Made by a program: the position numbers and the translations under genes. From Pempheris klunzingeri (Eukaryota > Chordata > Actinopteri > Acropomatiformes > Pempheridae), in the NCBI RefSeq assembly GCF_042242105.1, contig NC_092014.1, forward strand, positions 7,563,374-7,627,373: a stretch of 64,000 nucleotides of DNA. The letters run 5' to 3'. Numbering within the stretch: the first letter of the stretch is position 1; the number at the start of each line of letters is the position of its first letter. A model generated the notes under the pieces. The model saw only the letters and a list, made by a program, of their open reading frames with translations. It did no database searches and had not been told where the DNA came from. This document shows, piece after piece, positions 9,129 to 30,344 of this stretch.

Positions 9129-9160
9129 GGCTGTCAACCACCTGCTGTGATGCGGCTCAC
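9129..9160 (-). pseudogene. Short echo of the fibrinogen gamma last exon
   Basis: The plus-strand text CCACCTGCTGTGATGCGGCT occurs here and again in the last exons of both fgg copies (near 9695 and 15659), and the match extends a few bases leftward with mismatches. It sits at the left edge of the duplicated fgg 3' block. It may be the scar of a third, deleted copy or of the unequal exchange that made the tandem pair. Too short to be a gene. Confidence 0.4.
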
Positions 9161-9648
9161 ATACCATGTGAGAGGACCAGGTGTAAATAGCTGAGCAGAG
9201 TTTTCTGGCTATTTGTAGATAAAAGAAGATGATAACATTACATTACATACAGGTGTGTTTCTGGTAACTCTTACTTCAGTGTTCTTGATTATATTTTGAT
9301 TTTTAGGGGGTGATTTTGTCTCATCTCCACAGAGCTGCTTGGCATATGGACTTTTCTAAGTTGTATCTTCAGGCTGGTAGCTACTCAGTCCAAACTAAGC
9401 CTGTCTAATAAAGTAACGACAAACTATATTTGGTTAAGAAAAGGCATTTATTTAGTGCTCAAAAAACAATGAGGAAGAAAACGTGAACATCAGTGTCCTG
9501 CTGGGTCTGATCAGCAAAACATGAACACATCATAAAGTCAGACGTTTTATCATGGACGCATGTTATTTCATGTAAGGCGGTTTCAGTGCTGTTGTGCTGA
9601 ACACCTTAACTGCAGCCTAAATAGACCACAAGCACAGTAATCTACTTT
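9157..9648. repeat. fgg 3' flank, copy 1 of a long direct repeat
   Basis: This non-coding block downstream of the proximal fgg copy matches 15061-15611 downstream of the distal copy almost base for base from the shared TTCTTGATTAT region onward. The distal copy has extra bases near 15130-15190. It marks the outer part of the tandem duplication. Confidence 0.85.
9447..9452 (-). promoter_or_regulatory. Polyadenylation signal, proximal fgg copy
   Basis: TTTATT on the plus strand (AATAAA on the minus strand), about 200 bp past the stop codon. The same motif is kept at the same distance in the distal copy. Confidence 0.55.
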
Positions 9649-12600
9649 TTAAGCATCTCCAAGTCCAAATTGTTTCACCCCTCCCTGCTGTCCGCCACCT
9701 GCTGTGATGCGGCTGAGGGGGATGAGCTTCATGGTCGTCTCTTTCAGGGAGTACCAGCGGTCGTGCCACGTGACCCAAATAATGCCGTTGTCGTAGGATT
9801 CACCTGAATCCTTTGCAGAGTACCTGCCACCTAGACGCAGAGAACACAGGCAGTTTAGAGTGGACATAAAATGAGTTTTACAAATATATGTGCTTAGATA
9901 ACTGTTTTGTACTTATAGGGCCTTAAACAGCATCAATCATGGAAATGAACACCAATGAAAAAGTTTGGCGCTGGCTTTTGCCATGCAGTCCTACCCTGGT
10001 AGTATTTGCCATTCAAATGTGCAGCATGACATCTATTCATCCACCAGCCGGAGCCGTCCTGCAGAGCACAGTTGCCATCATACTTGTCATTGTCCATGTC
10101 GAAGGTACTGAACTGCATGCCATTGTGAAATGAGTAGAACTTGTCACTGGGATCATCTCCAAAGTCAAAGCCATCGAAAGCATCTCCAGCATCACCGCCA
10201 AAATAGTAGCCATATGTTAGACGGTACTTGTCGATCTCTGGTCCAACTCTGAACATGACATAGTCGGCATACCTGCAGAAAGGAGGCCAGAGAGGGGAAT
10301 GGAGGACACATGTTTTTGTTAACTTCTGTGTTGTTTTTCTCCTTCAAAGAAAACCTCATTATCAGGGTTTTGTTTGCCTTTGCCCATGTGTTCCTTTGCC
10401 CTTCTCTTTAATAATCTATTATCATGTGTTGGGAGCAAGTTGCTGACCCAAGTGGGGGAGTTCAAGTGTCTCAGGGTCTTGTTCACAAGTGAGGGTAAAA
10501 TGGAGCGTGAGATGGACAGACGGATCGGTGCGGCGTCAGCAGTAATGTAGGTGCTGAACTGGACCGTTGTGGTGAAGAGGGAGCTTAGCCGGAAGGCGAA
10601 GCTCTTGATTTACCAGTCGATCTATGTTCCAACCCTCACCTATGATCATGAGCTCTGGGTGATGACCGAAAGAACGAGATACAAGCGGATGAAATTAGTT
10701 TCTTCTATAGGTTGTCTGGGCTCATCCTTAGAGAAAGGATGAGGAGCTCGGACATCTGAGAGGGGCTCTGAGCAGAGCCACTGCTTCTTCACATCAAAGG
10801 GAGCCAGTTGAGGTAGTTTAGGCATCTGGTCAGGTCACGTCCCATATCTCATCTGGCCTGGGAACACCTCTGCTACACCCTATTGCTCGGGAAAAGGACG
10901 CCCAGAGTGCCCTGCTTGATCTGTTGCCACCACGACCTGACCCCGGATAAGCGGAAGATAATGGATGGATGTATGGATGTATGGATGTATGGATGGATGG
11001 ATGGATGTGTGCATGTGTATGTACTTTTTGTTACCGTCCCAGTCAACAAGATCTATCCTCAGCACAAGTGGGATGGTTGTACCGGCAGTCAGCAAATGTA
11101 TCTTCTCATTGCCGAGCCAGAACTCTGTGTTGGTTTTTGGTGAGAGATCACCAAAGCCGTTCTTGTACTGATTCCAGTCCTTGTTGAAATCCACACTGCC
11201 ATCACGTCTCTGTGGACACGAAAAAGTGATCAGGGTCAAAGTTTATGACAGCAGTGCAAGATTTTGACTCCTTAGTCAACAAAACATTTCTCAAATGCCA
11301 TATTTCAATAAAGGACTGTATCATAACTACTAGTGAAGGGAGGGGTTTTAAAAATGGTTGGGGAATATGTCCTTTCATTTTTGCTGAAAAGAGAGGAAGT
11401 CTTTTTATTTTAGTTTATTAGAATATATAATAACCATTCAAAAGTAGTTACATTGCCTTCGATTGCTATGATTTGCCTCTTCCAGTCATTAAAAGTAATC
11501 AATCATCACATGTAGGATTTAAAGAAAATTATTTGAACACTGAGGAAGGCCTTGTTGTTGCTTTAATAATCAAAACATAAAACACAAAATAACATCCTGG
11601 ACCATATTTCCACAAGTATTCCTGGCAGTTAATAGGCCAATCCTCGCCACCATTCACTTAATCAGACCACATTTCCCTACTTTTCCTGCCTTCTTACTCC
11701 CAGTTTATTAAAGGAGTCTATCAAAAGAGTCAAAAAAACAATCAAAGCGTGGACAAATATAGGACTATTTGGAGTGCTTAGGCTGGCACATGTTTAGAGA
11801 TGCAGCCACTTGGAAGAACCACATCAGTCTTGAGGAATACACACCAACAGTACCATCATAAGAAAATCTGCTGATCACAAATACAATAATACCATTCCCT
11901 AACCAGAAAGCCTAGGCGAATGGAGAGTTGAGAGTAACATCCACAGCCAAAACAGCTGCCTTTTGCTCAAGGAGTCATAGAACACCACCAAAGCGAGACT
12001 GAAAGCTGGCATCAAGGAGGCAAAGACATCAAGGTGACCATCAAGACCATCTCAGGCTACAAAAGCTGAGGCAACCCCAACATGTGTGAGGCCATGTTAC
12101 CAGATGACATTAACACATTATGGTCACTTTATGGTCAGTTTGATCTCCTCAACAAGAGTCAGCTGTTAATTTTGCCCCACCTCCAAAAACCCTGATGAGA
12201 GTGAATATAACTAAAGCAGCAGGACCTGGTAACATCCTCGACCGGGTATTAAGAACATGTGCCAACCAATCAGTTGATGTCATCTCCAACATCTTTAACA
12301 TGTCACTGTCAAATGGAAGTGATCCTGTCTGCTTCACAATAGCCACCATTGTCCCTGTACCTACAAATTCTACAGTTCCTAAACCACCCTCTGGCACTCA
12401 TTCTGATGAAGTGCTTTGAGAATCTGGTTCTCGAGCACATCAAAAACAACATCCCAGCCAGCGTGGATGCTCACCAATTTGAAGTCAGAACCAACAGATC
12501 CACAGAGGACACCATCTGCACTGCCCTCCACTCAGTGTTCACGCGTCTTAAAAAAACAACAAATTAACAACAGCCACATCAGAATGCTGTTTGGTGTTTT

Positions 12601-14762
12601 CAGCTCAGCTCAACTCAGGGCTACCTCACAAACAGACCCCAGACAGTCCGGCTTGACGGCCACACCTCCTCTACTCAAGTGCTGAACACTGGAGTCTCCC
12701 AGTGCTGTGTGCTCAGCCCCCTCCTGTTCACATTGTAACCCCATGATAGCTATCCACCACATCAAGGGTACTCTGCTGTGAGGTTTGTGGGCGACACCGC
12801 CGTCATCGCCCGGATTACAAGCAGTGATGAGAATTCATGTCAGGAGGAATTCATCTGCAGTCTTGCAGAGTGGTGCTCAGAGAAAAAATTTCTGCTCAGG
12901 AAAACCAAATCAGGAGGCGAAGACACACACCCCTAGCTGCATCAGTGGAGCTGGGGTGGAGTAAGTAAGAAGATTTAATTTCCTGGGAATCAGCATCACA
13001 GAGAACTTATCATGGTCCACCCTCTTTGGGAAAGCTCAGAAACAACTGTATTTCTTAAAGAGATTTAAGAAGGCAAAAGCCCCATGTTAAGGTCTTGTTA
13101 AATTTTTTTTACAGAGGATCAATATAAAGCACCCTGACTGGAAACATTACAAACTAGTATGGGATGTGTGCGGCCCAGGACAGGAGGGCTGTCTTCCTAC
13201 CTGGCATCAATGGTGTTGGTGTGGTGAGGTGCCTGCACAGAGCCTAAAGGACATTAAAAGACAATTCCCCCCCCCAGGTACAGCCTGTTCACCTTGCTGC
13301 TGTCTGGAAAGCGATACAGCAGCGACTGTTATCGTATCACCAGACAACGGAGCGGCTTCATTCCTCCGGCTGCAAGACTCCTGAACATATCCTCTGCAAT
13401 CCACCACAATTTTTTTCTTCTTCTGAGTACTAAGCTCTTCTTCTTTGGTAAAAACACTATATAGGAATCATTGAGTGCAAGATGAAGACAGTAAAAAGCC
13501 ATTTTCCCTAAAAGTTAAAGTGAAACATACCCTCTGTATCACTGTGAAGCCACGTCCAGAGCTGTCAATCTCACAGTACACCAGGAACTTCTCAGTGGCT
13601 GCTGCTGGCTTCACATAGTAAAGGCCACTGATGGTACCACCTTTCAATGCAATATCCTGGCAGTCTGATGACAAAACATTTACAATGTGAAAGACTGTGT
13701 GGTTCATTCCAGACCTTTAAATCAGCACATGTTTTTCCTGTTGTTGACCTAGTTAACCTTTTTAAGTAATTATATCCACATTTCGTTTGATTACAAAGTT
13801 TAGAAATAACTCAGGTCCCAACAAATTACATCTAGACTAAATCTGTTTACTTTACATTGATGCACCATATTGATTTGTCTCTAAACACTGAATAAGGACC
13901 AATATTGTTCAGATGAGGCGTGATTGGGAAATTTCTTGTGAAATGGGAATGGCCTGAGGGTCAATAAAGTTACTTTTTATTTATTCTTTTTTTTTTTACC
14001 TGTTCCGCTGGTGGGCTGGATCTCAACTATGTCTTTACAGTGCTGACTGCAATTCTGCTGCAGCTGGATGGCGAGTTCTTTCAAATCTGCCAATCTTTTC
14101 TCATTGGATGAAATTAAATCCTGAAGCTCACTGGAAAGAGGGAAATCAAGATTAGTGTGTGAGTTGGATCCTCAGTAATTTACGTCTCAGTTTTTTTTTA
14201 CAAAAGAAAACAAGACAAGAATAAGAAAATATGAAAATGAAATAAAATGTCAGTGGGGAGTTTGAGCACTTATGTATACAGGGGAAGGAATGGGTTTTGA
14301 AACCCCCAGTGATCTGTGTGCAATCCCTACTGTGTGGGCGAGGAGGAGTGGTACGCATTGGCCTGAAAGTGTAGATGACTGGGTCAAATTGGCAATTGTC
14401 TCAAGTTCCCAATCCTTGTTCACCTCTGTTATATACCTCAGTAGATTGTCAGCCACTCCACATGTAGTAGAACAGAACTTTCCCTGAATGCAGACAGGAC
14501 AAGTGAAAAATCCTGAATCTTAGTTTGCTCATAACCTGTAAACATATTATTTGTATTTGAATACTCACAGAGCTCTGATTTGGGGTGCATGTTGCCAGGC
14601 TGTCAAGTGCGATTTGCTACAAGAAAAAGACAAATTGATAAAGACTTTTGTGCTCAAGAATACAGCGTTAGTGATCTGAATCTTAATTCAGTAACTTACT
14701 GCTGATGAGAAAGAGAAAAGTAACAGAAGTCCTCCTGCTGCCGCAAGAAGCGATGGTGCCAT
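9649..14762 (-). CDS. Fibrinogen gamma-like tandem copy with a shortened coiled coil
   Basis: Exons: 14700-14762 (signal peptide, [21 protein letters not shown]), 14569-14616, a truncated third exon starting at 14483, then 14000-14130, 13531-13664, 11025-11209, 9995-10272 and 9649-9830. Compared with the intact neighbour, the distal half of exon 3 and all of exon 4 are gone, removing most of the rod between the two disulfide rings (CSTTCG and CSQHCKD remain). Phase-2 donors at 14380/14379 (gtcatc) or 14437/14436 (gtatat) would keep frame and give 374 or 355 aa; neither is strong. The globular domain is intact and ends [17 protein letters not shown], keeping the QQ and K of the cross-linking tail. 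One codon is lost near residues ESYDNG (EFGYDNG in the neighbour). Two LINEs lie in its introns. It may be a decaying copy or an altered secreted protein. Confidence 0.8.
10430..11011 (+). mobile_element. 3' fragment of an RTE-type LINE with ATGG-rich tail
   Basis: A 5'-truncated non-LTR element in the intron between fgg-copy exons 11025-11209 and 9995-10272, antisense to the gene. It still shows [20 protein letters not shown] and [17 protein letters not shown] (about 10570-10680), typical of the RTE reverse-transcriptase C-terminus. It is broken by several frame changes and ends in an ATGG-rich simple repeat (10970-11006). CATGTGT occurs on both sides (10423-10429 and 11012-11018), a likely target-site duplication. 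The same intron in the other fgg copy lacks it (177 against 752 bp), so the insertion postdates the gene duplication. Confidence 0.85.
11690..13440 (+). mobile_element. Degenerate CR1/L2-type LINE in a fibrinogen intron
   Basis: Pieces of a non-LTR reverse transcriptase appear in order on the plus strand, in different frames: a linker like NQKAWANGEL (about 11900), KAAGP...[12 protein letters not shown] (12214-12270), [18 protein letters not shown] (12485-12540), [14 protein letters not shown] (12694-12735), [11 protein letters not shown] (the FADDT region, about 12786) and [13 protein letters not shown] (about 12980). Many stops and frame changes show it is dead. It lies in the intron between exons 13531-13664 and 11025-11209 of the proximal fgg copy. 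That intron is 2.3 kb here but 0.54 kb in the other copy, so the insertion is lineage-younger than the duplication. Confidence 0.85.
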
Positions 14763-14819
14763 GTTGCTTTGGTCACTAATTGTGGTCTTGTCTCTTTGCA
14801 GAATGAAGAGCAGTTTAGC

Positions 14820-14845
14820 TCTGAGGGATATTTATCTGAACAAGG
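14820..14845 (-). promoter_or_regulatory. TATA-like promoter element, proximal fgg copy
   Basis: On the minus strand the sequence reads TTCAGATAAATATCCCTCAG, about 65 bp upstream of the ATG, with an ATAAATA core. The whole 14763-14905 flank is nearly the same upstream of the other copy, so a shared liver-type promoter was duplicated with the gene. Promoter function is inferred. Confidence 0.5.
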
Positions 14846-15060
14846 TCCTCAGTTCAGTGTTTGATAAGGGGTTCATAGGCAACATCCCACTCACTGTGAG
14901 TAATTTGACAGCGGTTATTTCCCGGATTTATAAGTTAACTAACTACAAACAAAGACATGTACTTTGACTGCTGATCCTACAGGGGGCTGAAGCCATAGTC
15001 TCCTGGTTGTAAACCATTCAGTTGCCTCACTCATCTCCAAATGTGCAATTGTTCTGCCTT

Positions 15061-15611
15061 CATACCATGTGAGAGGACCAGGTGTAAATAGCAGAGCAGA
15101 GTTTTCTGGCTATTTGCAGAAGTATATAAAAGAAGATGATAAAATATTATATTTTCATTTACATTTATGCTTAATGTATTTATTTAAAGGCTGCCACATT
15201 ACATTACATACAGGTGTGTGTTTCTGGTAACTCTTACTTCAGTGTTCTTGATTATGTTTTGATTTTTAGGGGGTGATTTTGTCTCATCTCCACAGAGCTG
15301 CTTGGCATATGGACTTTTCTAAGTTGTATCTTCAGGCTGGTAGCTACTCAGTCCAAACTAAGCCTGTTTAATAAAGTAACGACAAACTATATTTGGTTAA
15401 GAAAAGGCATTTATTTAGTGCTGAAAAAACAATGAGGAAGAAAACGTGAACATCAGTGTCCTGCTGGGTCTGATCAGCAAAACATGAACACATCATAAAG
15501 TCAGACGTTTTATCATGGACGCACGTTATTTCATGTAAGGCGGTTTCAGTGCTGTTGTGCTGAACACCTTAACTGCAGCCTAAATAGACCACAAGCACAG
15601 TAATCTACTTT
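15061..15611. repeat. fgg 3' flank, copy 2 of a long direct repeat
   Basis: Partner of 9157-9648. The near identity continues through the last two exons and the intron between them (15612-16260 against 9649-10290), then falls off in more upstream exons. Confidence 0.85.
15410..15415 (-). promoter_or_regulatory. fgg: Polyadenylation signal, distal fgg copy
   Basis: TTTATT on the plus strand (AATAAA on the minus strand), about 200 bp past the stop, matching the position in the other copy. Confidence 0.55.
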
Positions 15612-18600
15612 TTAAGCATCTCCAATTCCAAATTGTTTCACCCCTCCCTGCTGTCCGCCACCTGCTGTGATGCGGCTGAGGGGGATGAGCTTCATGGTCG
15701 TCTCTTTCAGGGAGTACCAGCGGTCGTGCCACGTGACCCAAATAATGCCGTTGTCGTAGCCGAATTCACCTGCATCCTTTGCAGAGTACCTGCCACCTAG
15801 ACGCAGAGAACACAGGCAGTTTAGAGTGGACATAAAATGAGTTTTACAAATATACGTGCTTGGATAACTGTTTTGTACTTATAGGGCCTTAAACAGCATC
15901 AATCATGGAAATGAACACCAATGAAAAAGTTTGGCGCTGCCTTTTGCCATGCAGTCCTACCCTGGTAGTATTTGCCATTCAAATGTGCAGCATGACATCT
16001 ATTCATCCACCAGCCGGAGCCGTCCTGCAGAGCACAGTTGCCATCATACTTGTCATTGTCCATGTCGAAGGTACTGAACTGCATGCCATTGTGAGACGTG
16101 TAGAACTTGTCACTGGGATCATCTCCAAAGTCATAGCCATCGAAAGCATCTCCAGCATCACCGCCAAAATAGTAGCCATATGTTAGACGGTACTTGTCGA
16201 TCTCTGGTCCAACTCTGAACATGGTGTAGTCGGCATACCTGCAGAAAGGAGGCCATAGAGAGGGGAATGAAGGATTCATGTATGAGGTAACTTCTGATGA
16301 GTCTTGTTTTTCTTCTTTAAAGGAAACCTCATTATCAGGGTTATGTTTACCTTGCCAGTGTGTCCCTTTGTACCTCTCTTACATAATCTGTTATCGCATG
16401 TGTGTGTGTGCGTACTTTTTAGTGCCATCCCAGTCAACAAGCTCTATCCTCAGCACAGTTGGGATGGTCGAACCAACAGTCAGCAGATGCATTTTCTCGT
16501 TGCCGAGCCAGAACTCTGTAGTGTCATCTGGTGAGAGATGACCAAAGCCGTTCTTGTACTGATTCCAGTCCTTGTGGAAGTCCACACTGCCATCACGTCT
16601 CTGTGGACACGAAAAAGTGATCAGGGTCACGATTATAGCAGTGTAAGATTTTGAGTCCTGTTTTTGCAGTTGGGTAACAAAACATTTATTCTTAAAACTC
16701 TTAAAAAAGTAGTTCACTAAGGAACTGGTGTGTAAAAAAGAGTCTTATCCTTTTCCTCCTACTGAAGACAGGGATAGTAGAGTATTAACCTTAAAAAGTT
16801 GCTACTTTCGGTTTTTATCCTTTGCCTTTTGCAGTCATTAGTAGTGAAATATTCCGTACCAACTCCGTTCTGCTTTGTTATTTTGAGATATTGGTGAGAG
16901 GATGTTGCAATTTTTATTTTCATTCAATTCAATTAAAAACTTTAATTCAGTCACCAACCAGCATTATCAAGTGTTTGGTTTTAGACAAATTATGTTTTTT
17001 TCACAGTATCACATTCTTCCTCTTCAACAAAATACTGGACAGGAATCATTTGATCGAGATGATGACAATAAAGAGTCCTTTTCCTTAACTGTGGTGAAAC
17101 ATAGTGTTATGTTCAACACAATGAAAGTGAAACATACCCTCTGTATCACCGTGAAGCCGCGTCCAAAGCTGTCAATCTCACAGTAGACCAGGAACTGCTC
17201 GGTGGCTTTCGCTGGCTTCACATAGTAGAGACCACTGACGGTGGCGCCTTTGTTTGCGACATCTTGGCAGTCTGATGAAAAAAGGGATGAAGAAGAAGAT
17301 GAAAAGGGAAGGCTCAACAAATGTAAAAGACTGTTTTGTTTTGCTTAAGACCAGTGTTGTTTATTATAAATCATGCTAAAAATTATCACATATTTTTTCC
17401 TGCTGTTATTTGATTTGGTTTTTCGGTAAATATGTCCACATTTCTTTAAATTATAAAGATTAGAAATAACTTAGCTGAAATGAGGTCACAACAAATGACA
17501 CCGGTCTGTTTACTTTGTATTGATGCACTATATTGATTTTAGTCTCTAACTAAACATTGAATGAGGACAAATGTTCAGATTGATTTAGAAACCTCTTGTG
17601 AAACACGACTGGCCAGAGGGTCAGTGTTTTTTTTTTCTTTTACCTGTTCCTGTGGTGGGCTGGATCTCGACTGTTTCTTTACATGGCTCACTACATTTCT
17701 GCTGCAGCAGACTGGAAAGTTGTTTCAAGTCTGTCATTCTCTTCTCGTTGGATGAAATTAAATTCTGAAGTTCACTGGAAAGAGAGAAATAAATGTGAGT
17801 TACACGAGCTGGATCTGACTAATTCATCTCTCAGCTTCTTACACAGAACAGTGTGAAGCTCAGAAATATTTTACAAAATAGATAAGGCTAGAATACGAAG
17901 TTAGATAATGAAAAAGAAGAATAAAGAACATCTGACGAGTATTATTTTATTATTATTATTATATTAAACATCATATTCATTTATTATTCCTGGTGTTTGT
18001 TTTATGTTACATATTGTATTTCATCTATAACAATGCATCATGATTTATACTCTGTTTGCTTGCCTGCACAGTAACTAGTTACTAAGGCTGGAAAAATATT
18101 GCAAATCAATTGAATAAATGTGCTTACAACTTTGACAACTTACAATATTTGCTGTTCCTGTGTGATGATGGTCTTCTCAAAACGAAGAACATCATCCAGC
18201 ATACTCGTTGACTTTTTGAAGTATGAATCTGGAATAAAAATGATACTTTGAATATATTAACAGCAGTGGGACTTGAGTCAAGCCATCAATTTAATCTATT
18301 TAAAGAACATACGTTAACACAAGTGACTAAAGTGCTTCACAGAGGAATTCTGAAAAAGGTGAGGGCACACAAAGCCAGCTGATGACTTGAGACCTGAATG
18401 TGTTACCTTGTGGGGAACTCTTTTGAGCTGAAGTAGCAGAATCTTTCATGTAGACGACTGTTTCTTCTGTCCCTTGGGTCAAATTGGCAATTTGTTCAAG
18501 CTGGTCTTGCATACTGTCCAAATCCTCACGCACGTCTGGCATATATTTCAGCAGGTAATCAGCCACTCCACATGTAGTAGGACAGTATGTTCCCTGAATA

Positions 18601-18640
18601 CAGATAATGCAAGCGAAACATACCGATCATTGTGTGCTCA

Positions 18641-18683
<43 letters not shown>

Positions 18684-18907
18684 GTAAAGGTGTCATTTAT
18701 AACTGCATACTTACAAAGTCATCTTTTGGGATGCATGTTGCAAGGCTGTCTCCTCTGATTTGCTGCAACAAAAAAGCAAAATCAATTCAGACTTTTGTGC
18801 TCTAGACAACTGGTTTTGCCAAACATCTGAATTTAGTAACTTACTGCTGATGAGAAGGAGAAAAGTAACAGAAGTCCTGCTGCTGTATTAAGAAGCGACG
18901 GCACCAT
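15612..18907 (-). CDS. fgg: Fibrinogen gamma chain, complete
   Basis: A secreted plasma clotting protein; gamma pairs with alpha and beta chains through disulfide rings and a coiled coil, and its globular domain binds calcium and the A knob during fibrin assembly. Nine exons: 18845-18907, 18715-18762, 18407-18593, 18144-18228, 17644-17774, 17138-17271, 16416-16600, 15961-16238 and 15612-15796, total 1296 nt = 431 aa, all phases consistent. Signal peptide about residues 1-21. Rings CPTTCG and CSEPCKE flank the coil. The fibrinogen C domain holds the calcium loop [10 protein letters not shown] and the stretch [17 protein letters not shown]. The tail [17 protein letters not shown] matches the human QQ...AKQ cross-linking region. 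Exon 2 has a single Cys (ATCIP) where human gamma has two adjacent ones. The QQ/K tail and order with plrg1 and lrat support gamma over beta or alpha. Confidence 0.95.
18641..18683. repeat. (ATCT)n microsatellite
   Basis: About ten uninterrupted tetranucleotide units in the intron between fgg exons 2 and 3; absent from the corresponding intron of the other copy. Confidence 0.95.
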
Positions 18908-25808: not shown

Positions 25809-27536
25809 ATGCTGCAGCTGTTGACATTCCTGGTGGAGAAGCTCTCTCTTCTCTCCAAGTTCAAACTTTTTGAGTCCAGCTGGTCGGATGCTGCGGACAA
25901 GAGCCGGGAGCGCCACGCACAACGCGGTCACCCACCGACTCTCCGAAGAGGAGACCTGCTGGAGGTCCCCAGAACCCTTTTCACCCACTACGGCATTTAT
26001 CTCGGTGATAATAAAGTCGCCCACCTGATCCCCGACATCCTCCCTGTGCTCACAAACGACCAGAAGCTCATCAGTACTGTCATCACAAACAAGAGGCTCA
26101 TCCTCGGCTGCATGTACAAGTGTGCCACGGTGCGCGTGGACACGCTGGAGGACTTTGCATATGGCTCCAGCATAATGGTCAACCACACGGACAAGACGGT
26201 GAAGAATCACGCACTAGCCAATGAAGATGTGGCGAAGAGAGCTGAAAAACTCATCGGAGCAATTCCGTACAGTCTGCTGTGGAATAACTGTGAACACTTT
26301 GTGACATACTGCAGATATGGATCTGCAGTGAGCCGGCAAACAGAGAAGGTACAGTCATTAACAGGTTCCTCAGTTTGGTCAGTAACCAATGATACTTATG
26401 TCTCATTAAGTGTCATTGGTTATTGATCATGTAAATAGTGTGATTTTTGATTGGCTGTATCCAGATTTAGCCAAGTGCATCATGCAGGTCAACATATTAC
26501 AAGCTGTGTTTTTGGCACCTTGGAGTGTGTCTTCATGCTCACAGAAAAAAAGATGCTGTGTTTAAATCCTGATTCACTTTTTACAGTTTAATCACAGTCA
26601 GATTAACAGCTAGGAGGATGGTGAGCAAGAGTTTGTGTTAGATCCCCCCCACTGATCCCCGCCCCCAGCCTTGGTGCTTTGTGTATGTGCCCTGTCATCT
26701 CCATGTCCCCATTAGATGCATTTTTATTAGACACAGCTTTAGTAGGAATATGCACCATGTGAATATAGTGTAAAGAAAAATTTTAGAAACTAGATTTTGA
26801 CACAGGGCGCCTCTGACACGGTTTAGATCAAGATAATCAATTTACTTACTAAAGAAAATACCGAACTCATTAAATCTATGTCATCTGCTGTGTGAAATGG
26901 TGCCACTACATATCATATGTAACTTATCTTACTGTAACTTATTATTTTAAAAAGATATATACTTTTTTTTGGATGTTAGAGATGGTCCTCATTTGTACCT
27001 CCACTATAAAACACTACAAGAAACCCTGATAATACAGGACACAATTTAGTTCCCATGGTGCTTTAGTGGTGCACCTTCTCAAACAAATCTGCAAATCAGA
27101 TTACTGAAAGCATCCAACACTGAGGGGATTTTAGGGCTTCTAGGAGTTAGGAGTTCTAGGAGTGTGTTTAACCATCACAGGTGAGGAGTACCGTTGCCAT
27201 GGTTACCTCCAAGTTAAGTTAGCAGTCTGACTTTGAGTGGTGGTTACACTGTTCACAGGAAGATAGGATTATATATGTGGCAGGCGGGCGACTGTTCATG
27301 TATCCATGGCATCAAATTCTAAATATTAGTCCATTAAGCAGGACATGTGAAATAATAATTAACCATATTTATTTCCCTTGTAGTTCTGTGAGGTCTTGAA
27401 ATCAATCATCAGAGACCAGCGCAGCGTGATTGTCACAGGCCTTCTTGGAATCATCTCTATCGTCTATTTCGGCATGGCAACGTCAACTACAGTACCCACA
27501 ATCCTTATCCCCTTTACTCTGTGGATGGCTGGGTGA
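25809..27536 (+). CDS. lrat: Lecithin retinol acyltransferase, tandem copy 1
   Basis: LRAT moves an acyl chain from phosphatidylcholine to all-trans retinol, forming retinyl esters for storage and the visual cycle; it is an ER membrane protein of the NlpC/P60 fold. Two coding exons, 25809-26348 and 27384-27536 (donor gtacag, acceptor ttgtag, phase 0), encode 230 aa, the same length as human. Catalytic residues sit at the human positions: His60 in [11 protein letters not shown], His72 in NKVAH, and Cys161 in [11 protein letters not shown]. The N-terminus is hydrophobic, and the C-terminal segment after IIRDQRSV (about 190-230) is a membrane anchor ending FTLWMAG. Start chosen for the match to family length. 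It sits after fgg as in other vertebrates. Which teleost lrat paralogue it is cannot be told here. Confidence 0.96.
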
Positions 27537-28609: not shown

Positions 28610-30344
28610 ATGTTTCTGTACCAACTACTCAACTTTTTCTTTGTAGCCTCAAAGAAGGAAGAGAAATCTAAATATGACCTGTCTCTTTACAAGCGTGGCG
28701 ATCTATTAGAAGTCCCCAGGACATTATTCACACATTTTGGTATCTACTTGGGCGACAATCGCGTGGCTCATCTGATTCCGGACATCCTGCCGGTTATTTC
28801 CAGGAATAGATCTGCAATTGCCAAGATGGTAACAAATAACCGCCTACTGCTGGGGGTCCTCACTAAGGTTGCCAGCGTCCGAGTGGATTCTGTGGAAGAT
28901 TTTGCGTATGGCTCAGAGATTCTGGTCAACAACATGGACAAAGTGTGCAGCAGGGCTCCTTTGGATGGGGATGAGGTGGCCAGAAGGGCAGAGAAACTCC
29001 TGGGCTCAGTCACCTACAGCTTACTGTGGTACAACTGTGAACACTACGTCATGTACTGCAGATATGGCATGGCCATCAGCTACCAGACGTACCAGGTACA
29101 GACTCTGGCCTATCAGTAAACATTTAAGGATCGCTTTATGTTTTTTTTCTCCACACTGGTTGTTAAAAGATCCTTTCTTAACCAATGTAAGTGATGGGGA
29201 CCAAATCCACAGGCCTTGTGCTGTGTAAAACTGCGAAGCTTAACCAAAGCTAATATGAGACTTACAAGTCAATATCTTGTGGTGTTACAGCCATTTTAGC
29301 TCTTTGTTCCTTTGCCAACTTTTCTTAGCTTCAGGGATAGTAAAATGAGAATATTGCCATGAAAATACAGTAAATTTGGAAGATAGCCATTTTATTTGAC
29401 TATACTAAGACTGCCGAAGCCTCACGTAAGCTTTGGCTGAACCTTGAAATTCATTTCTGCATAGAACGTGTACTGTAAACTTAAAATGCAACTGCATTAG
29501 GAAGGAATCTCTCCACAGCCAGCATGAACAAGAGGAATGATTACAATGACCAATAACTCTTTTAATTGATTTATAGATGCATGATAACTGTTTTAGGGCA
29601 GAGAAAATATCTTATCCTTTACTATAAGATCAATTAACATCAAGTATGATTGAATTAGTCAATGAATTGTGGTTTGCAAACTGTCTGTTGCATTAGAGAT
29701 ATACTGTATATAAGCTATTATTAATGTCATGGCTGAGCAGCTTGTCAAAGCAAAACTCCTTTCCATGATTTCTTAAGTGTTTCTGCACTACATCCTGGAG
29801 AATATTGCATGAGAAAGGTCACATGGAAAAGGTTTAAGTATCATCGCACGTGCAGGATTTGCAGTAATGAAAAACAGAATTTGCGTGTAACACTCGGTGT
29901 AAGGTGGTGTTAATCTAAATGTACTTGTGATGGTGTGACCGAGGTAAACAGCTTTAGTTCACAATGACTGGCTATCTTACAGCCAGACTTACTGATATTT
30001 GCTCAAATGGGGATATTTTCAAACCAGTCATGAAAATTAACTTATTCACGAGGCGATTAGCTCCACCTAGTGTTACTTCACGCCAAATTTACTGCCGTGC
30101 TGGAGGTAGTGCTGACAGACCTCTACTACACAGATAATTTGCGATCTACTTTGCCTCAAATCGCTGATTCTCACTCTCTTTCTTGTAGTTCTGCACAACA
30201 GTACGGAAGATTGTTTGCAGCAGGATGAGTTCCTACTTGACTGCACTGTGTGGTGCAGGAACCATGCTGTACCTGGGCTGTGTGACGCCACTGACAGTTT
30301 TACCGACCCTGCTCATCTCATTCACCATCTGGATGGCAGCCTAA
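28610..30344 (+). CDS. Lecithin retinol acyltransferase-like, tandem copy 2
   Basis: Two coding exons, 28610-29095 and 30189-30344 (donor gtacag, acceptor ttgtag, phase 0), encode 213 aa. It keeps the catalytic set: His42 in [15 protein letters not shown], His54, and Cys143 in [11 protein letters not shown]. It also has the same intron position as copy 1, so it is a tandem duplicate. The N-terminus is about 18 residues shorter ([19 protein letters not shown]), still with a hydrophobic stretch. The C-terminal anchor (from about [11 protein letters not shown]) is much diverged but ends FTIWMAA. Upstream GTG at 28580 is in frame but an unlikely start. Divergence in loop and tail suggests changed expression or substrate handling; enzyme activity is likely but not proven. 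Confidence 0.93.

Follow-up and report, generated by a model that had tools for sequence, protein, structure and literature searches.

The stretch of Pempheris klunzingeri DNA that we analyzed (64,000 nucleotides, hereafter the window) holds two tandem copies of the fibrinogen gamma-chain gene, fgg: an intact neighbor, which we call copy I, and a second, downstream copy, which we call copy T (Table 1). That T is an fgg copy is evident from its sequence, its exon structure, and its position. For both, we rebuilt the gene model one exon at a time. All nine coding exons of copy I have GT/AG borders, and human gamma (PDB 3ghg chain C) matches this copy with an E value of 2.2e-164. Copy T retains exons 1 and 2, part of exon 3, and exons 5–9; these are bordered by AG and GT, contain neither a stop nor a frameshift, and have the same border phases as copy I except at the end of exon 3. 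When the longer of two possible T models (374 aa) is aligned to the protein of copy I, 311 of the 374 aligned residues are identical, which is far beyond chance. Upstream of T exon 1, homology between the copies runs out near 14898-14929.

Table 1. Coordinates of the two fgg copies and of the features of copy T, numbered from the first letter of the window.
Feature	Position	Strand	Remarks
Copy I, fgg	15612..18907	-	431 aa from nine coding exons; coil at its full 109 residues
Copy T, whole	14762-9649	-	Directly downstream of I, on the same strand
T promoter-proximal/5' UTR region	14763..14880	-	109/118 bases identical to I
T exon 1	14700..14762	-	Start codon and signal peptide (21 letters); donor gtaagt
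T exon 2	14569..14616	-	Carries the single N-terminal Cys
T exon 3 (355-aa model)	14437..14483	-	Ring 1 is CSTTC; CPTTC in I, human, chicken, and bovine
T remnant of exon 3 second half	14370..14436	-	Holds donors 14436, 14423, and 14379
T shortened intron after loss of exon 3 tail and exon 4	14131..14369	-	
T exon 5	14000..14130	-	Coil end and ring 2 (CSQHC); first letters TGA
T exon 6	13531..13664	-	Globular domain
T exon 7	11025..11209	-	Globular domain
T exon 8	9995..10272	-	Calcium site and hole a; largely within the putatively converted tract
T exon 9	9649..9830	-	Includes the stop codon; shorter by one codon than its counterpart in I; QQ...K cross-linking tail retained
Homogenized tract in T	9160..10255	-	Counterpart at ~15061-16221 in I

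In gene order and repeats, the window looks fish-like, and the genes around the pair appear to be those that usually neighbor FGG in vertebrates. The gene to the left of the pair is presumably PLRG1, which it resembles by sequence; the one piece of this gene that was scanned gave only a sub-threshold beta-propeller match. Two tandem LRAT-domain frames (PF04970) occupy 25854-26426 (E = 1.9e-41) and 28625-29119 (E = 1.3e-41), and a rhodopsin-type receptor is also found among the fgg neighbors in the window. Introns 6 and 7 of copy T (13530-11210 and 11024-10273) are ~2.3 kb and 0.75 kb long, compared with ~0.54 kb and 0.18 kb in copy I; the extra DNA has what we take to be a resemblance to decayed transposable elements. 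A 91-aa open reading frame within T intron 6 (12144-12416) had no match in Pfam, and an exon 8 peptide, when compared with viral contigs, had no relative there, as expected. Regarding the gene family as a whole, one comparative study reports FGG in 47 of 47 vertebrate genomes and no codon site of FGG under positive selection (PMC4209140).

The partial exon 3 and the absent exon 4 of copy T raise a question: how much of this region was lost? The earlier note on this DNA had claimed that exon 4 and the second half of exon 3 are missing, and this is borne out for all of exon 4 and for most of the exon 3 half. Searched against the full 64 kb, the exon 4 peptide matched copy I alone (E = 3e-15); the next match, with an E value of 4.6, fell outside copy T. 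At the DNA level, exon 4 aligned to T 14436-14131 no better than shuffled sequence, with 460 of 500 shuffles scoring as well or better. The cut into exon 3 is not clean: the remnant contains an in-frame 15-bp gap and further gaps of ~16 and ~12 bp. Gap-tolerant pairwise alignment was used for the stretch from exon 3 to exon 5, mafft having misplaced the exon 3 remnant; in this alignment, homology to exon 3 is not significant past ~14370. On its own, the segment 14378-14330 does not match copy I beyond chance (244 of 500 shuffles did as well), so we set the end of the remnant at ~14370. Exon 5 thus begins ~240 bp away (14130 to ~14370), close to the ~250 bp previously estimated. Immediately before exon 5, the sequence at ~14250-14190 resembles intron 4 of copy I (1 of 500 shuffles as good). 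The intervening ~100 bp (14350-14250) match nothing else in the window significantly and are possibly filler at the deletion; for the wider segment 14350-14200 against copy I, 43 of 500 shuffles were as good. A weak tblastn alignment across this intron (residues 30-171, 36% identity) was discarded: it is carried by the ends of exons 3 and 5, and there are stops between them.

Which donors could join what is left of exon 3 to exon 5? Of the 16 GT dinucleotides listed for the stretch from 14480 to 14141, those at 14478, 14436, and 14379 are in frame into exon 5. The latter two had been put forward as frame-keeping; indeed, their joins to 14130 are stop-free and yield the 355 and 374 aa that had been stated. 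We ranked the donors with a position-weight table for vertebrates, on which the 14 donors of the two gene models score from 2.7 to 7.6. As routes for splicing, the two proposed donors fare differently: the one at 14436 (phase 2) scores 5.1 and is usable, whereas the one at 14379 (phase 2) is implausibly weak. With a score of -2.1, the latter (CCA/GTCATC) ranks under all 14 donors of the gene models, and we rejected the 374-aa model; the donor is so poor that this form appears unlikely. The GT at 14478 scores -3.2. The top score of the stretch, 6.31, belongs to a donor at 14423 (phase 0) that is absent from the earlier note. It lies 13 bases from the in-frame donor at 14436 and outscores it. 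Because exon 5 starts with the letters TGA, a join from 14423 encounters an immediate stop, and the product would be 57 aa.

The coil that separates the two disulfide rings comprises 109 residues in copy I and 111 in human gamma. In copy T, it would be cut to 34 residues if the 355-aa form is made and to 53 if the 374-aa form is; the shortening of more than 50 residues that had been claimed amounts to 75 and 56 residues, respectively. Likewise, the Pfam Fib_alpha profile is matched over positions 4-143 in copy I and over positions 104-143 only in copy T. The rings themselves had been described as readable. Their cysteines are retained, but both ring prolines are lost: ring 1 reads CSTTC rather than CPTTC, and ring 2 reads CSQHC where copy I has CSEPC and the human, chicken, and bovine gamma chains have CQEPC. 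His217, which is common to copy I and to those three outgroups, is Asp in copy T. The globular domain is recognized by Pfam (PF00147, 286.7 bits) at residues 95-333 of the 355-aa form. For the functional sites of this domain, we assumed the following labels on gamma: D318, D320, and G324 for calcium; Q329, D330, H340, and D364 for hole a; and Q398, Q399, and K406 for cross-linking. All 14 labeled residues in these classes match copy I in copy T, and 12 of them match all three outgroups; positions 322 and 338 differ among the outgroups themselves. At the N terminus, human, chicken, and bovine gamma carry Cys-Cys (human Cys8 and Cys9), residues that help to link the two fibrinogen half-molecules (PMC5713436); in T and in I alike, the pair reads Thr-Cys, which leaves a single cysteine.

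Because its coil is too short, the T chain would be expected to fail in hexamer assembly, i.e., to be unable to pair in register with full-length alpha and beta chains; the earlier note had argued as much, and we consider the argument sound. Related lesions give a sense of scale. A 33-residue insertion into the B-beta coil impaired assembly and secretion; the mutant chain was weakly synthesized and secreted in CHO cells, and none was found in plasma (PMC5713436). A five-residue coil deletion is linked, by the title of a work cited in that report, to bleeding and hypodysfibrinogenemia (PMC5713436). Another source states that chain assembly needs proper assembly of the coil (PMC8874973).

The earlier note took the globular domain to be wholly readable. 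Readable it is, but partly through an apparent recent gene conversion that had gone unnoticed. Copies T and I differ by 14-27% in the introns that we compared outside the tract (22/81 in intron 1, 59/301 in intron 5, and 22/156 at the 3' end of intron 7) vs. 1-3% inside it (3/164 in intron 8 and 4/398 in the 3' UTR and flank). Counted in 100-base bins, the mismatches fall from 11 to at most 3; from ~10230 to 9231, they stay at 1–3 per 100 bp, and they rise again over the last ~100 bp of the tract (5/82, with gaps). This pattern indicates a recent conversion that extends from inside exon 8 to ~9160, past the 3' UTR, in which one copy overwrote the other, presumably in the direction from I to T. 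The perfect look of the globular domain in copy T would then owe much to the homogenization of exon 9 and most of exon 8, and the intact look of its calcium site, hole a, and cross-linking tail would be partly borrowed. Half a kilobase downstream of the T stop codon, a 20-bp fragment at 9157-9138 is an exact match to exon 9, and right after it an 18-bp piece (9133-9116) is 94% identical to the 3' flank of copy I (15193-15176). Together, the pieces at 9157-9116 look as if a complex recombination had left its scar where the converted tract ends.

Outside the tract, comparison of exons 5–7 (150 codons) between T and I gave a dS of 0.41 and a dN of 0.12, for an omega of 0.28; for T exons 1–2 (37 codons), omega was 1.06. 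With dS halved equally between the copies, and supposing that T took 65-80% of the replacements, the implied branch values of omega are ~0.36-0.45 for T and ~0.11-0.19 for I. Since omega in exons 5–7 is well below 1, neutrality over the whole life of copy T is excluded. We thus rejected the notion that T has been a pseudogene throughout its history: an open frame and an omega of 0.28 over ~0.2 neutral changes per site are not the product of chance. The polarity of the replacements was assigned with the human, chicken, and bovine gamma proteins as the sole outgroups. Among the 237 sites at which these three agree, 16 have changed in T only, 3 in I only, and 41 in both copies; the excess of T-only over I-only changes is significant (binomial p = 0.004). 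A looser rule places 23 changes on T and 9 on I (p = 0.02); it could not assign the other 31 of the 63 T/I differences. In a protein tree, the branch lengths are 0.167 for T and 0.056 for I; T has evolved approximately threefold faster.

The few changes inside the tract bear on the more recent history. There, ~5-7 nonsynonymous changes accompany 1 synonymous change and a 3-bp deletion, close to the neutral expectation of 4:1. Exons 8–9 taken whole, a count that takes in the opening codons of exon 8 before the tract begins, have a ratio of 9:2, not significantly different from the 38:30 of exons 5–7 (Fisher p = 0.18). Finding 6 of 7 changes in the tract to be nonsynonymous is unlikely if both copies were as constrained as I (p = 0.016 at an omega of 0.16), but it is compatible with an omega of 0.28 (p = 0.08). 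Non-coding sequence in the tract does not differ more than coding sequence: 7 of 562 positions vs. 10 of 458 in exons 8–9, with 3 of those 10 differences falling in the opening part of exon 8 that the tract does not reach. On these small counts, the changes in copy T since the conversion look neutral. A copy dead since that event would have suffered approximately one or two disabling hits, and the probability of none is ~0.16-0.41 with the indel rates that we assumed. Because so little time has passed since the conversion, a stop-free T is unremarkable even if the copy is dead.

What, then, is copy T? The earlier note had posed a dichotomy: T is either in decay or a secreted fibrinogen-domain protein in its own right. 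This framing was right, and the evidence leans toward decay, albeit without proving it. We think it probable that T is a once-constrained fgg paralogue in late decay. This reading is favored because the rod, the native exon 3 donor, and the ring prolines are lost and because recent change looks neutral. The very poor donor behind the 374-aa form, the better-scoring competitor of the 355-aa donor, and the roughly threefold faster protein change in T weigh on the same side. Viewed as a candidate pseudogene, copy T is without exon 4 and without the original donor of exon 3, yet it has no stop or frameshift; the donor at 14436 keeps the frame.

The history that we envision begins with a tandem duplication of fgg that produced T as its downstream member. 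For most of the time since then, T would have been a working, constrained coding gene. Exon 4 and the end of exon 3, including its donor, would subsequently have been lost, taking away the coiled-coil rod needed for assembly with the alpha and beta chains; relaxation of constraint presumably came after the loss of the rod. Today, T may be transcribed at most from its conserved proximal promoter, and such RNA would be spliced by way of improvised donors within what remains of exon 3. Use of the donor at 14423 would generate an RNA with an early stop, encoding 57 aa and probably degraded, while use of the donor at 14436 would yield a 355-aa gamma-like chain that, in all likelihood, would have no partner. 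The recent conversion, which took in exon 9, the 3' UTR, and the greater part of exon 8, would have made T look better preserved than its history warrants.

Several observations sit uneasily with decay. The retained exons are free of stops and frameshifts, and every remaining splice site is GT or AG. The pairwise omega of exons 5–7 and the estimate for the T branch are both below 1. The proximal promoter of T differs from that of I at 9 of 118 positions, a lower rate than in introns 1 and 5 (22/81 and 59/301). The functional residues that we checked match those of I, though largely within the converted tract. Finally, the counts since conversion are small, and they are compatible with an omega of 0.28 (p = 0.08).

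The principal alternative, a functional, separate secreted protein, we regard as unlikely but deserving of serious attention. Copy T has a signal peptide, an N-terminal Cys, two Cys pairs, and a complete globular domain; on a 34-residue stub, its product might form small disulfide-linked oligomers and serve as an FGL1- or ficolin-like lectin or as a modulator of fibrin via hole a. The open 355-aa frame, the constraint in exons 5–7, and the conserved proximal promoter are consistent with such a role. So, at face value, is the distribution of the T-only changes at outgroup-invariant sites, which cluster in the assembly part (exons 2, 3, and 5; 10 of 33) rather than in globular exons 6–7 (5 of 66; Fisher p = 0.006), a contrast that leaves out the sites changed in both fish copies. 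Those sites, however, are also relatively commoner in exons 2, 3, and 5 (14/47 vs. 13/79), and we discarded the contrast as a sign that the head was kept: against this both-copy control (10:14 vs. 5:13), it is not significant (p = 0.52), and the N-terminal part may simply evolve faster. Further counterpoints are that the donor at 14436 is outranked by its out-of-frame neighbor at 14423 and that recent changes look neutral, on small counts; the constraint may wholly predate the loss of the rod. A specific version of this alternative casts T as a working rod-less gamma, namely a free, secreted head that binds calcium and knobs and is mounted on a short disulfide-linked stub. Such a protein could compete in or modulate fibrin polymerization, or it could act as a lectin; we consider this version to be distinctly doubtful.

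The contrast between T exons 1–2 (omega 1.06) and exons 5–7 (0.28) would also fit an arrangement in which T exons 5–9 serve as an alternative 3' half of copy I, leaving T exons 1–3 free to decay. In this scheme, exon 4 of I (donor 18143, phase 2) would be joined to exon 5 of T (14130, phase 2) to make a full-length gamma chain with the T head. The two copies have the required strand and order, the phases match, and the join is stop-free and encodes 430 aa. But the read-through transcript would have to skip exons 5–9 of I as well as the polyadenylation signal at 15415; moreover, T exon 5 lacks the ring 2 proline, and T still has an exon 1 with an open frame and, before it, a promoter region that is conserved. 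We judge this scheme to be very unlikely. The chance is slight, too, that the lesion is an artefact of assembly or haplotype in which the stretch from the 3' part of exon 3 through exon 4 was collapsed or lost between similar tandem copies. Misassembly is common where tandem copies share blocks that are almost identical; against this, the T exon 3 remnant has several separate small gaps and substitutions of its own, the ~100 bp of remaining intron that is unmatched in the window is not DNA that a simple collapse would make, and the aligned blocks flanking the gap are only ~70-74% identical between the copies and are easily resolved. That an unseen coil exon has replaced exon 4 to give a full-length T is scarcely credible. 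In its favor, the ~100 bp at 14350-14250 have no significant match to I; against it, the ~240 bp of remaining sequence contain nothing like exon 4 and have two stops in the exon 5 frame upstream of that exon.

If T is in fact decaying, then the locus illustrates how a duplicate on its way out can seem untouched in the part that conversion has renewed. Annotators should take note, since automated annotation would probably call T a plausible 355-aa "fibrinogen gamma chain-like" protein. If T instead functions, it would be a clotting chain freed from its hexamer, and both the working of a lone gamma head in plasma and a route from fibrinogen to short secreted fibrinogen-domain proteins would become testable. 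Among the titles listed for fish fgg duplicates or gene conversion in the openly accessible literature, none reports a rod-less gamma copy.

How does T compare with known systems? It is like human, chicken, and bovine FGG in its ring cysteines and in its calcium, hole-a, and cross-linking residues, and its exon borders and phases are those of copy I, which matches human gamma. It differs from them in its coil (34 or 53 residues vs. 109-111), in both ring prolines, and in exon 4. FGL1 (fibrinogen-like protein 1, hepassocin) is secreted, its coil is short, and it has a single fibrinogen globular domain; the predicted T product would be alike in all three respects; a working rod-less T would, if real, be an independent re-invention of the FGL1/ficolin architecture from fibrinogen. 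The likeness does not extend to descent: in a search run with copy I, the score was 551 bits to human gamma and 208 bits to FGL1, and T is a tandem copy of fgg. Finally, T resembles partly deleted tandem paralogues under conversion in its loss of exons, its faster change, and its near-identical tract, while differing from them in that its retained exons have neither a stop nor a frameshift.
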